Source: Tubulanus polymorphus (lineage: Eukaryota > Nemertea > Palaeonemertea > Tubulaniformes > Tubulanidae). From it: DNA of 64,000 nucleotides. Of this stretch, positions 15,101 to 45,600 are shown in pieces; within the stretch, counting starts at the first letter, position 1; each line of letters begins with the position of its first letter. The translations under genes and the position numbers were made by a program. The notes below the pieces were generated by a model. That model was not told the DNA's origin. It saw only the letters and a list, made by a program, of their open reading frames with translations, and ran no database searches. The DNA is taken from positions 22,400,650 through 22,464,649 of the forward strand of contig NC_134026.1 in NCBI RefSeq assembly GCF_964204645.1, given 5' to 3'.

Positions 15101-18100
15101 AATCAATTTTCGATTCCCTCAAGTAAACGCATTAAGGCCTGATAAATCAGGGTTTCTCGTAACAAAAATCGACCAAAGCACAGATGCGTAGAGATATACG
15201 CGAACCTAAAAGAGCCGAGCGAATGCGCCTTAATCGCATCGCCGACGGAAACTCGTTCGAAAGATTTAAAGGCATCTGAGGATGTACTCGTGTTTGGCGA
15301 CAGTCGAATGACCAGCAGCGCTAATGGTTATAGTCGACGACATCCATTTATCGTTGGCGGCTTAACAAATTGCTGGCCCAATTTTGGACAAACTCGTTTA
15401 AATTAGATTTCAGGGAATATAAATAGTTGCGACTATAATTTCCAGTCGGTCGTGAATGTCATTGAGCATTTTTTCTCCTCAGTAGAAACTTTTGAGTCTG
15501 ATTTTGTCATATCCTCTGTTATGCGTTCAAGAGGTTCCTGTGTAGTTTAACAACCCCTTATTATATTGTAACAATCTCATTTTCAAATAAACTCTGACGA
15601 TGGGTGCAAATATTCCACCTGTACTAACAGTAGCAACAGGAATGTAAGGAAAGAAACCATAGCAGTTGTTTTAGACTCAATAATGTGGGTTTCCACACAC
15701 ACAGGAATGTTGGATGGCGCATATCCTCTTATTTTTGTTAGTCAACTGAAAACACTTGTCCACAATGATATCTAAAAGAAAGAGAAAAGGGAGAGAGTGA
15801 AAATGTATGGCTATAGCCAGGCCTTACCTTAAAAGAAATCAAAAGACAAAACCTAGTCCTACCCTAGATGCCTTGAAGTAGGCTATCGCAATTTCTTCGA
15901 TCAGACGCCTTTCCAATATGATTGAAACAGTACCAATTTTAAAACACTTTTAGAATTACACAGCCTAAACTTAGCAACTAAAGGTGGGCGTAGGTCGGCC
16001 TTGCGACTCACTGTGACGCGACTCACTGCGACCGCCAGCGACGATCGCGTCGCAACGACCAACCGACCTACGCTACCTTGCGACTGCCAGCGACGCCGGT
16101 CGCAATGAGTCGCACCTGTTCTACTTTCTGCGATGCGATGAGACCATCAGCGACGATCGCGTCGCAACGACCAACCGACCTACGCTACCTTGCGACTGCC
16201 AGCGACGCCGGTCGCAATGAGTCGCACCTGTTCTACTTTCTGCGATGCGATGAGACCATCGCAACCGATCTACGCGCTCTTGCGACTGGGAGCAACTAGT
16301 CGCACACAATCGCGTCGCAACCGACTTACGCCTCCACTTGTGACGCAACGCGACGATCGCGTTGCATCGCAAGGTCGACCTAAGCCCGGCTTAAGGCCTC
16401 AAAATTGGGCTCCAGGTCTCTCTTTTATCTAAGGATAACATACAACGTCTTGACATCTCGAGTTTTACAATTGAAATCTGCTGCAACAAAGCGTCTCAGC
16501 AACAACAGTAGCCGCAAATATCATGGTTTTCAGATATGACTGACTATCTGACAATGATATCTAGCATCCTTACACATCACAGCCGATGCTATATGCACTG
16601 CGTATATGAAAAAACTATTTCAATGTTATTTCATGCATGCTTACTCCGGCGGCCACTGGAGAACTGAGAATGTTTCGATTACCGGCGCATTATTGACTGT
16701 CACAAAATTCCTTTGAGTAAGTAATAACATATAACACCTTTATTAACAAGATATATATAATGTATATACCGAGATTGTATGGAAGAGAAGATATGATACA
16801 CCGAATAAGATTTCCTCTCGCTCTCAGTTAGCTGGGGCGCATCATGCATACCGACAACATTTCCAATAAATCAGAAGGAAATCATCCAGTTCAATAGATT
16901 CACATATGCTCGCCTTCGGAAGCAAGCTGCCCATAGCACTATTTGCGGAGTTTTATGGAAAACCTAAGCGAGTTATGGCTAAACCCAATCATTCCGGATA
17001 ATTTGGGCCAAATGAAATCAATCCCGGTTTATGAAATCAAAAATTGCGTTAAATAAGTTGACTGCAAATAGGGCCAATTAAATAGATTTTATCAAAATCT
17101 GGAAGAAAGCAAGTTATATAATAACAGGGTTTCCGTGATGGTGAAAAGAAAAAATAATGTCCATTAGTTATTATCGGGGAAAAATTGTACAAGCCTGTAT
17201 CTATATCAAGACAAACACCGCAGGCGTGAAGCCCAAAGGGCGAGTTATGAGGATTTTTTGGAGCAATCATTAGTGCATTCTTATGTTATCAGAGTAGTGC
17301 CTGTCACATGAGCTTCATTCACTCATTGAAGTAAAAGTAACACTCACAGAGACTTACTTCAATACTTACTTTAGTTACTATGATTTTTTAGAGAGAACAG
17401 AAAGAACACAGTTTCATTGGCTAACATGTAGGACTATACCATTATGGAAATAGGGTAGGCCTATATAGGAATGTCATGACCCTGTCCGGGCGATTACACT
17501 ATGCTTGTAGGGAAGGTAGGTATGGCCTATGCGCTTTTACTGCCTCACTACATCCCCAGCCACGCATTTCATTATCAAAACAGATCGTTACATTGAAATA
17601 AACTAAAATAAGAACACTGTAAAGTCTCTAGTGAACGAATAATCAATTTCTTTTCGTAATTCCTCTGAGGAATTTTTCAGGATCCGGGGAAAATAGGACC
17701 ACTTTTGGTTGGGGGAAAAAACAGCCACACAGAAACCCTGAAACCGATGAATCAACTAAGTTAGATTTCATTGATGGTGAAAGGAACGAAGGGAAAGCTT
17801 TGAAAATTATCATTTACTTTTTCAGGAAGTTTCATACAAAGGTCTTCATGCACATCTTTATGATCATCGCTTAAATTCTATTTAAGCAACTACGTACGAT
17901 AAAAAGATAACGAAGGAATGTGACCAACTTCGTTGAAAAAAGAGGATGTGTTACATCCGATGAACCAAAAATAACAACCTCTACGAAATCTACTTTCATG
18001 AATCTTATCAATATGGTATTGGCATCGAGAAATGTGTTGAGAATCTTATGAAGAGAAAGAACAGCTTTTCAGAAGACTTAAAACATATATGCGATCTCGA

Positions 18101-27968: not shown

Positions 27969-30900
27969 ATGGCGTCTTCCAATGAACCACACGTGAAAAT
28001 AAAGCAAAATGCGAACATAAACTGGAAACCAGTCACTTTTAAATCAGATGGAGATTTTGATGGCCTCGCCAGTATAACAGTATTGGAAGATTATGAAATC
28101 ATCGGTGGTAAAATAGTTCCTAAGTCACGGCAGGAGCAGAATGTAAGAAATGGTATTGAATTGACTTGAATTTATTGATACCTGTTTTCAGTTTAATAGG
28201 GTTGCACTTTTTAATTAGATATCGAAGATTTTAGGGGCTCACATCCTCGATTGTCGGGGTTTAATTTATCTTACACCAACACATACCCTGGTTGCATTTC
28301 CTTTGTTGGTCTTCTAATCATTACATCTTGGCGGATATAGTCTGAACTGAACCAGATGATGTACGGGTTCCCTACTACTTGTTAGAGAACAACAGATAGG
28401 TACTAGACTAGGGCAGACAGTTTGCCCTTTGGTCTGTATATCTAGCCAATCAGATACATTTTTTTGGTAGAACATCTGAATACATAGGCCTAAACTGTCC
28501 GCCGAAGAAATCTTGGAAGTCAGTGTTATGGCATAGTGAAGGAACTGCGGCTGCAAGGTCTGTGTTGGCATGAATTTTGACTGGAGGCAATCAAACCCTG
28601 GCAAGGATAGGGCCCATCACATATGGCTGCCATCCTGAGCTCTGCTCCATTATCCTTGAATTTTGTGTACTTCTTACGCTAATATAAGAATTTGTTTTAG
28701 AAATCTTCGGCGTACCCTTCTCTGAGTGCCAAAACCAAAAGTGAGAAAACGAAAACAAAAAAGTTCAAGAAACTTGTTGGAAAGCAAGAGAAAATTGACA
28801 CTGTAGAGAAAAAGAATGAAACAAAAAATAAAAAACCAGATAAAATAGACAATTCTTCACCAGTTGTAATGGAAGAAACCATTTGTGAACCACATAATAC
28901 TTCTCCAAAAACTAGTGAAGGGGCTAAACCTGAAAGTCGCAAACAAAGAAAGACCCGACTTTACAAAGAAAAGATGACAGCCAATAAAAAACAAAAAAAG
29001 GAACGATTAGCTGCTAATAGGGCTGAAGATAAAGCAAGAAAAGATCAAGAAGCCAACGAAAAAACTAATGCATCTGTGAAAAAACTGAAAGAGCAAACTC
29101 CAAATTCCAAAAAAAGAAAATGTAAGTCAATTAAATTAGATTCAATAGACAAAATTTTAGTTGTCTTACAATTTCAAAGTTCACTCATGATTTCATCTAT
29201 GCAGCCAAAAATGAAAATAAGAAATCAGAAAGCAAAAAGATTAAGTTGACTTGTAATGATGATGAAAAACAAGATAGTGATGATAATGAAGATGATGGTG
29301 ATGATCGCAATTTCAAGGATGATGATGACGATGATAATGATTCGAAAGATACTTTTGATGTGGAGAAAATAAAAAACGGTGAGCTATGTATGATTGTGAT
29401 TGGAATTGACAAGAGATAACATCTTTGAGCATAAATTTGACGTATAAATTTCTGATTGATTTTTCTCATAGAAATGACAGCTTGGAAAGATTTATTTGTC
29501 CCTGATCCAGTACTAGCAGCATTGTTTGATAAGGGTTTCACTTCGCCAACACCTATACAAGCCCTAACACTACCTTCTGCTATTCGAGATCGAAAGGATA
29601 TCATTGGAGCGGCAGAAACAGTAAGTCGTGAAAACGTTAGACTCATTTCAGAAATATCTGTGATACTTTTTGATTAGTTATGATTTTAATGGGGCTTAGT
29701 CTATGGGAATAATGCCCTAATTGGTTATTTTATCTATGGCTAATGTTTTATGGCTTTTTCAATAATTTAGTAATTCAGTCTAGCCTTCATTTTATTTAGT
29801 GTCTGAACTTCATAATTGCGTTTTTTAGGGCAGCGGAAAAACACTGGCTTTTGGAATCCCTTTACTAAACAATATCCTATTGAAAAAGATGCAAGCAAAT
29901 CGTTCAAATTCAGAAGAAAGCGATGATAATGAGGATGACAATGATGGAAATGATGCTATTTCTGCGGCAGATGATGAAGGTTTGGAAAAAGATGACATCA
30001 CGGAACAACTGGATGATAATGAATATGAAGATGAGGAGTCTGATGGTGCAGACGAAAGCAACGATGTAGATAATGAAATGGAAGGGGATGAGGTAAGATG
30101 CTAACAAAAGAGCGTTTTGGAATGATGATGATGAAGTGCCAGGGTAAGATGCTAACAAAAGAGCGTTTTGGAATGATGATGATGAAGTGCCAGGGTGCTA
30201 TATTTTATAGATGATCTCTCACAGGATTACACTCGATTCATTTGCAAGGTAATAAATCTGTCATCAGTGATTTTGCAATTTAAGGATGAAGATGAAAGTC
30301 TGGATGGTGAAGGTGATAATTCCGATGTTGGAAGTAATCTAAGTTTCAGCGGTGAAGATGAATGGGATGAATCAGAGCTGAGTGTACCGGTGGAAAAACT
30401 ATTCAATTCTGTAAATGATATTGCACTGTCTAAAGACAGTGTAGACGACGTTCATGAACAGAAACCCGTTATTTCTGAAATGAATCAACGACTTTACTGT
30501 CTTATATTGACCCCTACTCGGGAATTGGCTGTCCAAGTGAAAAATCACCTGGAAGCTGCTGCCAAATATACTGGAATAAAGGTGATTTCGCAATTTATTT
30601 TAGAGTATCAAATTTTCATAGTTATATCCATCGGCAACAAGTGTAACTTTCTGAATGTTCTAGGTAGCTGTTATACTTGGTGGAATGGCTCCTCAAAAAC
30701 AGTTGCGCATTTTGAAACGTCGTCCTGAGATTGTCGTCGCCACACCAGGTAGATTATGGGAACTGATTCAAGAGGTTTGTATTCGATGACGTTCCATCTC
30801 ATTGGAACCAAATTCAGTTTTGAAGTTGACCCAAATGCATAGCTATTCATTCAACAAATACCATGATGTCACGGTAATACAATACCACGATCAAAAATAT

Positions 30901-32932: not shown

Positions 32933-33427
32933 AATTGTTGTGGTTTTAAATCAGTTTTGTAATTTTGTAGTCCTTTCATAGAAGATAACAGGATTGTCCT
33001 AGGTTCGAACCAGCTTCTGATACCACCGATTCTGATTCTAAAGAGAATAAAAAGTCCTGGTCTCCATGTTATTGTTATAAGATATTGTCTGGATCCATCG
33101 AGGGGTTTAAACCAAACACTACACTGGGTTTAACTCGCACATCTTTGGCTTGTTCCCAGGAACCTGTAACAACGACTGGTATTCGGACTCTCTTGGCCCT
33201 TACGACATACAGAACTAGAACGATCATTCTTTCACAGAAATTCCACCACCATTAGATCCGGACTGGTATAGGAGTTTCAACGTTTAATCTTTTGTGTGAA
33301 ATATTGTAACCTTTGCATGCCAATAATTGGTTAGAGTGAAATAACCCCTTAGTGTCACTAGCACTGGCATGCGAGTGTTTCAACCATTCTCCCCCGGGAT
33401 GTGCTGCCACCGTTTAAAAACTTCAAA

Positions 33428-34761
33428 ATGGCTGGTATCCGAGGTAATGTTTACCGCACTAAAACACTTTAAACTATCCATTCGTTGCTGCAATGAGAAC
33501 AAATAGCTTCAGATACCAAATGTTTTAATGAAATTAGACCCTTCACTGACCTGTGAATAGGCACCGAAATAAATTCAGCCAGCTAGGCTTTTTTGGGGAC
33601 AGTTATTAATAGTACTAACTACCAGATTTGCATACTGAATAAAATAAAAACGAACCGACCTTTTTTGTTATCTAAACTCAAGTAACACTAATTCTTTGCT
33701 AATATTTTCCCTTTCATGCGAACCTTGATTGAGATTGATTTTTGACGCATCTCATTTACAGCGTAAGTAGATATATTCTCTGAACTGTCGGTTTTTATTT
33801 TTAGTTTGTGACTGGTTGTTGTGATACATTTTGATTTTAATTAAAGAATGATTTAAAAAACCTTTAAAATTTTACTTTCAGTTTGGTCGCCTTGGCATTT
33901 TCAGCAGCAATCGGCATTACACTACTCGTGTTAGGATGTGCTCTACCACAATATCAGTGAGTCTTTCAATCATGATACAGGCCGAAATTATCCTTACGTC
34001 ATACGATTAGAATGATAATATTTTGCTGTATTTTGGATAAAAGACTTTACCGCCAATTGTATTTTTGTAACAGAAATTGGTGGCCGATGTTTGTTATATT
34101 GTTTTACGCACTGGCGCCGATACCGACGATGGTATCAAAGCGGTTTTCAGCCGACAGTGGAAGTAGTGCGTTGATAGAAGCTATGCTGTTCCTAACGGCA
34201 GGAATAGTTGTGTCAGCTTACGGTTTACCTGTGGTTTTAGCTCACACACCTCTCGTCAAACCCGTGGTAAGATCAAATGAATTATGGCCATCTTTGAAAA
34301 TCATCGGAATTTATGTAAGATCTAAATCAATTGACTTCTCAAATTCTTCCGACTCGGGATTAGCATCATAGATTAGCATCAATTTCAGGCACAATGTTAC
34401 CTTACATATAAAACCATTTCAAATTATTCAACAGTAGATAAATCCAGCTGAAATTTAACACATTGAAGTTGTTATACACTGTATATACTGTATAGATTTT
34501 TGGGGCTATCCATAAAGAAGGTGTGGGTGTGTGGAATAAACAATTTTTGCTAATAGAGATCATACCTTAAATATATTCAGGCGTTTTAGATGTAGGGCAA
34601 AATGATATTCCGGGAAAACTGATTGTAGGTATTGTTTGTTGTTTCAGATTCAATGGGGAGCATGCGCACTTGTAATGGCCGGTAATACTGTTGTATTTCT
34701 AACTATATTAGGATACTTTTGGACATTCGCGGAAGATGATTTTGACTACAGCATGTGGTGA
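33428..34761 (+). CDS. LEPROT: LEPROT/endospanin (Vps55 family) endosomal membrane protein
   Basis: Leptin receptor overlapping transcript proteins (Vps55/OB-RGRP) are four-pass membrane proteins of endosomes and Golgi that control sorting of receptors to the lysosome. Exons: 33428-33443, 33762 (a single base), 33882-33956, 34074-34266, 34648-34761, giving 132 aa, close to the usual 131. The protein starts MAGIRALVALAFSAAIG, followed by LGCALPQYQ, NWWPMFVILFYALAPIP, a third hydrophobic stretch with GIVVSAYGLPVVLA, then WGACALVMAGNTVVFLTILG and an acidic end. These are the family's conserved positions. Without the one-base exon the first and second main exons are out of frame. It lies 496 bp downstream of the DDX24 stop on the same strand. 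AATAAA at 35092-35097 could end the transcript. Confidence 0.92.
33762..33762 (+). other. LEPROT: Single-nucleotide exon of LEPROT
   Basis: Exon 1 ends in phase 1 (CGA G, then GTAATG). The next recognisable exon begins T TTG GTC GCC after TTTCAG, so it needs two bases already in the codon. Between them lies CATTTACAG, then C, then GTAAGTAG: a strong acceptor and a strong donor flanking exactly one C. Including it makes the codon GCT (Ala) and the N-terminus MAGIRALVALAF, matching the family pattern MAG(V/I)(K/R)ALVAL. Introns on either side are 318 and 119 bp. The reading is inferred from sequence alone. Confidence 0.78.
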
Positions 34762-42619: not shown

Positions 42620-45600
42620 ATGGAATCTCCCCTTAACAAACTACCGCAACCGTCTTCAAGTAAGTAGCATTCAACAAGACCTAGTTATTAACCAAGTTGT
42701 GGGTTAAATCTGACTTAGGTGTCACAATAATTTCATTTCGAATTATTTCTTCACTCCAGAATCTAGGTACTAATCAACATCTGTAAGAGCGGGCTCTAAA
42801 TGCATACGCAGCCACAATAGAAATCGGGAAACGGCTATGTCTCTATTGGGAGTCATGCGATATTTTTGTCGCGTGGTTTATTAGTGAATTAATTGATATA
42901 GTGTTCAGTATAAATGTGTAACCAATTGACACGGCTCACATAAGTTTTTAAACACAAATCGATGCGGCCTTTTGTTTCCTCTGTGGTCAATGTCAGGCGT
43001 AAGTGGTTACGTCTGTTTCCCGAGAGCTGTAAAGTCATTTGAGTTTTGCTACTTGTTTTGCTCTAAACCACAGGTGATTTTTTCGAGTGGTCTACTTCAA
43101 TCTTCGCTCTAATATGCGTTTAATGCATGTAAGTAGTAAAAACTAATTATGGCTAACGTTGCCAGCTCACTTGTGCCACTAGATTTTAAAATTATCGGGA
43201 ATCAAACGTCGGACAGCATTCGTCATACGGATCCGAACAAAATATGAATTTAGATACGACGTGTTTTCCAGGTAGGATTTTGTTAGATGTTCCGTGTAAA
43301 GTCTGCCAAGATCATTCTTCCGGAAAACACTACGGAATATATGCGTGCGATGGGTAAGTGATATAACTCTTAATGATAAGCATCTTAAAGGATAAAACAA
43401 AAAATCTATGTGAGTAAACATTTGTGTTAAACCATGGGCTATATAACCTTTATGACGACTATTCGTTTTATAGCTCATGGTTTAACTTAAATCATAAAGT
43501 TAAATCAGAATTTCTATGTGTTACAAAAAGATGTCTTATACATGCTATCCACATATGTATAAGGCAACGTCTCAAAGATCTACAAAAGAGGGTACTCGAA
43601 ATTTATTCGCGTGAAAGATAAGTGATCCGTCGTTTCTTGTTGAGAAGAAATTCAACAATCTTTGTGTCCGTATGAAACGCTTTGCTTAAAGTGTCCTGTG
43701 TTATTTTTAATCAAGTGGGCAATAACTAAGCACCGGGCAACCAAATCCTCTGAAACGTAGCATACTTCATACACGGGTCCCAATTTATAACGATGTTAAT
43801 AAACTACAATGTAATACGTATTATATAAGATGCAATCAATAGTAACCAGTTTTTTACTACGTATTTCAGATGTGCGGGATTCTTCAAGGTAAGAAAATGA
43901 AATGATTTCTTTCGAGTTCCCAATATTCCAAAACTATGACGTATCCACGAATCCATTAATGTTTTCTTAATAAGTCAACACTCGTTAAAACTTTCAGCGA
44001 TCTATTCGTCGTAATCGTCAGTATGTCTGCAAGTCACGCGGACAAGGAACTTGTTTAGTGGATAAAACTCATCGTAATCAATGCAGAGCGTGTCGTCTGA
44101 CGAAATGCGTGGAGGCTGGAATGAATAAAGAAGGTATAGATTTTAAGCAAATCTTATTATCACTATTCTATTCGATACATTATCATTATTTGCGTATATC
44201 TTAAAAAGGCTCACCTAAGCCACAATAATTCGGTGTTTAGTCGTCAATTAGTTGTAATTATTTTGTTGAAATATATTTTACGATAAATTTGTTCGAATTG
44301 TTTTGTAGCCGTGCAGCACGAGCGCGGCCCGCGACACTCCACGATTCGGCGTCAAGTAGCTATGTATCTCAAGGAGCAATCAGAACTCTCACACGCCGCT
44401 GTCATTCAAACTCCGGTTCCGATCAGACCCATGTACATTCCTCCTCCGACTGTTTCTATGGATCTTCACCTACGCGAGGCAGATTCTAGATTAGCGGGAA
44501 TGAGAATACCGCAATCTTCACCAAACAACATTCAAAATGCTTTTCTTCACCAACCAGTGCCAAAGGTTTGTATTTTTCACCGAGCGTTCTAATTGCAGTT
44601 TTCATAGATATTTATGGATTCGGTTATAAATTTTATTAACACCAGCTTGTAATAATTAGTTCGAATTCTCATTTCCAGTTCCCGACTTTATTTTCCCCGT
44701 CCACCACCCCGGGACCCGAGGTGATTTGTGAAACGGCAGCAAGACTCTTATTCATGAACGTAAAATGGACCAAAAGTATTCCGGCATTCGTCGGTTTACC
44801 GTTGCGAGATCAGACTTCACTGTTAGAAGAAGGTTGGAGGGAACTATTCGTTTTGAGTGCTGCGCAATTCCAGATGCCAATCGATGCTCCACCCTTACTT
44901 ACTGCAGCCGGTAATATATACATCACTCCGTATTCATAATATGTGACATTATGCTATTTTGATAAATTTCGGATTTTAGTTTTTCGATTAAATCCTTTGA
45001 ACTTGTAAAAAAACAGTTTTTCGGATGATTTATCCAATCAAATCATATACAGTTACATAGGGCCCAATTTCTTTTTTACTAAAGACGGGCTTAGGAATAT
45101 TTTCATATCAAGTGAATGAATTTTAAACCTTTTCCAGGCTATAGCACCAACGATTCGCAGCCAACGAAAGTAACTCAATTACTCGCAGAGTTACGGATTT
45201 TTCAAGAAGTAATCGACCAATTTAAAGCGATGAATACCGACCCCACGGAGTATGCCTGCTTAAAAGGAATAGCCTTATTCAAAACAGGTAAATGACATGT
45301 TTTTATTAAACTTGTACAATCTGACCTGACAAGTGGGATATTATCAATAATACGTGCCTGTGCGCTAAGATGTTTTCTGATTTCCGATTTCAAAATCAAA
45401 CGCCCTGTTTCGCTCCCGGCAGGTGTGGTGGGTCTGTAAGGGACACTCAATCAAAAAATCGAACGAAATTTACCAGCCAAATAAATAACAGGGAAAATCC
45501 CCAATTTTAAGATGAAAAAAGAAGATCTTCGACATATTTTGTGATGTCCTATCATCGATTTTCTTCTCTTTTTAGTTTTTCCATCCAGTTCCCCAGCGGA

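Follow-up and report, generated by a model that had tools for sequence, protein, structure and literature searches.

A putative one-base exon in LEPROT of an animal genome

In this animal genome, one letter of the conserved LEPROT protein code appears to sit alone between two introns as a one-base exon, in the same gene family (VPS55) where land plants have a proven one-base exon. The window analysed is a 64,000-nt stretch of Tubulanus polymorphus (NCBI RefSeq assembly GCF_964204645.1, contig NC_134026.1, positions 22,400,650 to 22,464,649 of the forward strand), within an assembly of 267.8 Mb and 77 contigs. We conclude from sequence alone, in the absence of RNA data, that LEPROT very probably has a spliceosomal 1-nt exon, its two flanking introns being removed stepwise, and that this exon may be the animal counterpart of the VPS55 one of plants.

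The frame gap in LEPROT and its repair

The gene was identified as LEPROT, the animal form of VPS55, with a Pfam Vps55 (PF04133) match of 125.7 bits (cut-off 24.6) over the full model (positions 1-120 of 120), and it is single-copy in the assembly. No second copy or processed pseudogene that could show the joined form was found, and no LEPROT or APC11 relative was confirmed in scans of viral and prokaryotic contigs for eukaryotic contaminants. The 119-nt intron was unique in the genome, with no indication that it is a mobile (introner-like) repeat.

Exon 1 ends after the first base of codon 6, while the next conserved exon, which begins TTTGGTCGCC after TTTTACTTTCAG, needs two bases before it (Table 1). 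Joining them directly gives MAGIRVWSPWHFQQQ, with the frame breaking after MAGIR and a stop being reached 17 codons on. In the 438-nt gap between them a lone C lies in CTCATTTACAG-C-GTAAGTAG, and adding this base gives MAGIRALVALAFSAAIG, which restores MAGIRALVALAF, the conserved Ala codon and a 132-aa Vps55-family protein ending in TGA. The joined transcript predicted with the 1-nt exon is GGTATCCGAG-C-TTTGGTCGCC (junction GGTATCCGAGCTTTGGTCGCC), compared to GGTATCCGAGTTTGGTCGCC if the exon is skipped. The first-pass annotation, which had proposed this base and this product from the frame argument, was confirmed on these points.

Table 1. Coordinates of the LEPROT features and other elements (window positions unless stated; a slash marks a splice boundary)
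Position	Strand	Feature	Observations
33428..33443	+	LEPROT coding exon 1, ATGGCTGGTATCCGAG, MAGIR + G (ends phase 1)	In-frame upstream stop at 33359; context AAAATGG
33444..33761	+	Intron 1a, 318 nt, GTAATG...CATTTACAG	Donor at 16th, acceptor at 5th percentile of 55 control sites; yUnAy branch motifs 16, 23 and 33 nt upstream of the acceptor
33762..33762	+	Putative single-nucleotide exon, C: middle base of the split Ala6 codon G/C/T	Best of 14 frame-restoring exons
33763..33881	+	Intron 1b, 119 nt, GTAAGTAG...TTTACTTTCAG	Unique in the genome
33882..33956	+	Next LEPROT coding exon, T/TTG GTC GCC...	LVALAFS (33883-33903) matches the start of the Pfam Vps55 model
33905..33905	+	Rival in-frame acceptor (TGGCATTTTCAG/CAGC) that would skip 8 aa of the first membrane helix without any 1-nt exon	Acceptor score 3.44 versus 0.34 for 33882
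34074..34266	+	LEPROT coding exon, NWWPMF...LVKPV	Donor GTAAGA at 34267 scores 4.97
34648..34761	+	Last LEPROT coding exon with stop TGA, IQWGACAL...DYSMW	
30092-30196		Perfect 51-nt tandem duplication in the DEAD-box helicase gene (possibly DDX24) upstream of LEPROT	Each unit reads GGTAAGATGCTAAC...GTGCCAG
16036-16260		112-nt unit, two perfect copies in tandem	
44287-44939		Part of a nuclear hormone receptor gene	Ligand-binding domain, 35.6 bits
49017-51138		Reverse transcriptase open frames of a retroelement	RVT_1, 114 bits for the first
L009:1142-1464 (APC11 locus; contig C5 of the assembly, 22740796-22741118)		APC11, lacking exactly one base between exon 1 (MKIDVK+A) and exon 2 (T+WTAVATW)	Two weak candidates: G at L009:1333 and T at L009:1377

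Every AG...GT exon in the 438-nt intron that restores the frame without a stop was listed, resulting in 14 candidates, of which the 1-nt C scored 7.9 bits and the next best 3.0 bits. To judge the sites with the signals of this organism, a spliced protein-to-DNA aligner was written and run on ARF/ARL/SAR1, ubiquitin-E2 and RING loci of the same genome, giving 61 introns of which 55 were trusted. None of these 55 showed a one-base gap at a junction, the only frameshift in the control set having been found in a non-orthologous RING-domain alignment that was discarded. For LEPROT itself, the donor GTCAAA at 34255 chosen by the aligner was rejected in favour of GTAAGA at 34267 (scores -8.2 and 5.0). 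With splice matrices trained on the 55 introns, the 1-nt exon scored 6.91, a score reached in 28 of 20,000 dinucleotide-preserving shuffles of the intron (6 of 20,000 if the base must be C), while the best of the control introns scored 1.47. AG-N-GT alone is common, with 145 occurrences on the + strand of the window, and YAGNGTRAGT occurs twice on the two strands of the window against 1.26 expected, so the significance comes from its place in this intron.

The first-pass annotation had described a strong acceptor and a strong donor, of which the former is overstated, as the acceptor falls at the 5th percentile of control acceptors (16th for its intronic part). The donor is as good as any control in its intronic part (GTAAGT, continuing A), but C at -1 is the rarest base there (about 1%), and a strong donor is therefore right for the intron side only. 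The 33882 acceptor is also weak for this genome.

Stepwise removal and alternative explanations

The best explanation is that C33762 is a constitutive coding exon of one nucleotide, in which we have high confidence. Because U2AF/U2 and U1 cannot occupy AG/C/GT at once, we infer that the two introns are removed one after the other by intron definition, in a recursive-like way. Either removing intron 1a leaves CGAGC/GTAAGTAG as a regenerated donor, whose perfect GTAAGTA match to U1 offsets the bad C at -1, or removing intron 1b first leaves CATTTACAG/CTTTGG as a normal acceptor. Both introns are within the size range of this genome (control median 273 nt), and either order leaves a usable site, although the order here is inference. 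For Arabidopsis APC11, changing A333 to T, G or TT put T, G or TT into the cDNA (PMC4674806), so the machinery simply keeps what lies between AG and GT, and the authors of that study favour intron definition with stepwise removal. Yeast snoRNA hosts show both orders for a one-base exon (PMC5033589).

The most serious rival, although unlikely, is direct splicing of exon 1 to the in-frame acceptor at 33905 (TTTTCAG/CAGCAATC), joining GGTATCCGAG to CAGCAATCGG (junction GGTATCCGAGCAGCAATCGG) and leaving the lone C unused. This acceptor scores better than that at 33882, the frame is kept, and the 124-aa product still matches Pfam at 121.0 bits. It would, however, leave unused the conserved coding stretch LVALAFS, placed in the frame that only the C restores, shorten helix 1 and make the AG/C/GTAAGT coincidence unexplained, and it could be a minor isoform. 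A sequencing or assembly error, or a null allele, with one base missing at the exon start (true AG/CTTTGG) would give the same spliced product through an ordinary phase-1 intron, and a one-base deletion, the simplest error, cannot be excluded by sequence alone. This is considered very unlikely, as it needs a chance match of about 3 in 10,000 with the right base, nothing comparable was seen in the 55 trusted control introns, and APC11 would need a second independent error at its first intron. Bridging of the gap by another exon (for example the 79-nt exon from 33603) or by non-canonical splicing is the least likely, as the best of the 13 other frame-restoring exons scores 3.0 bits and inserts 26 residues next to the first membrane helix, while an acceptor one base upstream (TTTCA/GTTTGG) would turn Ala6 into Gly and needs an unknown splice-site type.

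One-base exons in VPS55, APC11 and other genes

Precedent for one-base exons was understated in the first-pass annotation, which mentioned a single plant gene. Plants have two conserved clusters of 1-nt exons, in APC11 and in VPS55, both confirmed by RNA-seq and RT-PCR (PMC8831610), and VPS55 is the plant counterpart of LEPROT. The VPS55 exon, which is also present in Zygnema (PMC11096116), has conserved GTRAGT donors, lies in the N-terminal coding part and, when omitted, removes the N-terminus and alters the first membrane helix. The LEPROT case shares the gene family, the exon size and a GTRAGT donor with it, but rests only on sequence, whereas plants show RNA proof and alternative retention. 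The land-plant APC11 exon (PMC4674806, PMC8831610) is likewise a lone base about three quarters into a short intron (A333 of 422 nt in Arabidopsis, here position 319 of 438) of a single-copy housekeeping gene whose frame is impossible without it, although the gene is different and the plant case was validated with constructs.

We therefore examined APC11 in this genome, a test named before its sequence was read. Exon 1 is ATGAAGATCGATGTCAAAA/GTGAGTG (phase 1; L009:1142-1160) and the next exon is TTTTCCAG/TTGGACCGCTGTCGCTACC (L009:1464 onward), which needs two bases before it. The aligner, run without prompting, placed a one-base gap at that junction. With one base the protein reads MKIDVK-x-WTAVATWRW... 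and appears colinear with APC11 of human and Arabidopsis. The possible 1-nt exons are AACTAG/G/GTAGGT (good donor, CTAAT branch motif 23 nt upstream, no pyrimidine tract) and TTTTTAG/T/GTGCAC (weak donor), which would supply G or T, respectively, as N in GATGTCAAAANTTGGACCGC. Neither stands out from shuffles, which match them in about 7% of cases, and they were not accepted as proof of a 1-nt exon. The gap in APC11 is thus secure, while the source of the base is not.

The 1-nt exon of Fusarium CYP621A (PMC12940212), confirmed by SRA reads, has the same phase-1 end and phase-2 start, with the middle base of the codon supplied by AG/N/GT, but it belongs to a fungal P450 and its base is G, which suits both splice consensuses, unlike the C here. 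Drosophila ratchet points (PMC8605326) also have an acceptor abutting a donor, stepwise intron removal and a strong regenerated donor, but are zero-nucleotide juxtapositions in very long introns with a cryptic downstream exon. LEPROT is not such a ratchet point, as one base is kept in the coding frame and the introns are short. In the duplicated helicase segment upstream of LEPROT the junction makes CAG followed by GGTAAG, a ratchet-point-like acceptor close to a donor. The placozoan mitochondrial cox1 1-bp exon (PMC5436844) is an animal one-base exon, also a C, but is flanked by group I introns and not processed by the spliceosome. No nuclear animal case was found in a literature search restricted to openly licensed papers, and it is therefore not established that this is the first in an animal.

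Origin and significance

One-base exons are so rare that finding the same two genes in plants and in this animal argues against coincidence. The 1-nt exons of VPS55/LEPROT and APC11 could potentially be shared by descent, or arise repeatedly in just these two genes, a reading that we regard as possible but less likely than not. Common descent would need the exon to predate plants and animals and to be lost widely, and the plant studies saw none of their microexons in green algae of the Chlorophyta, which speaks for a later origin in plants. Under this tentative reading, one-base exons would be ancient, maintained features rather than recent oddities, silently lost by intron loss in most lineages.

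If confirmed, this would be a one-nucleotide spliceosomal exon in an animal nuclear gene, in the gene in which plants have one, with the second plant gene showing the same gap in this genome. This raises the question of whether the smallest exons are ancient and maintained, or whether something about these two genes is prone to make them. It is a hard case for exon definition and a source of hidden annotation errors, since proteins that depend on such exons lose their N-terminus in automatic gene models.
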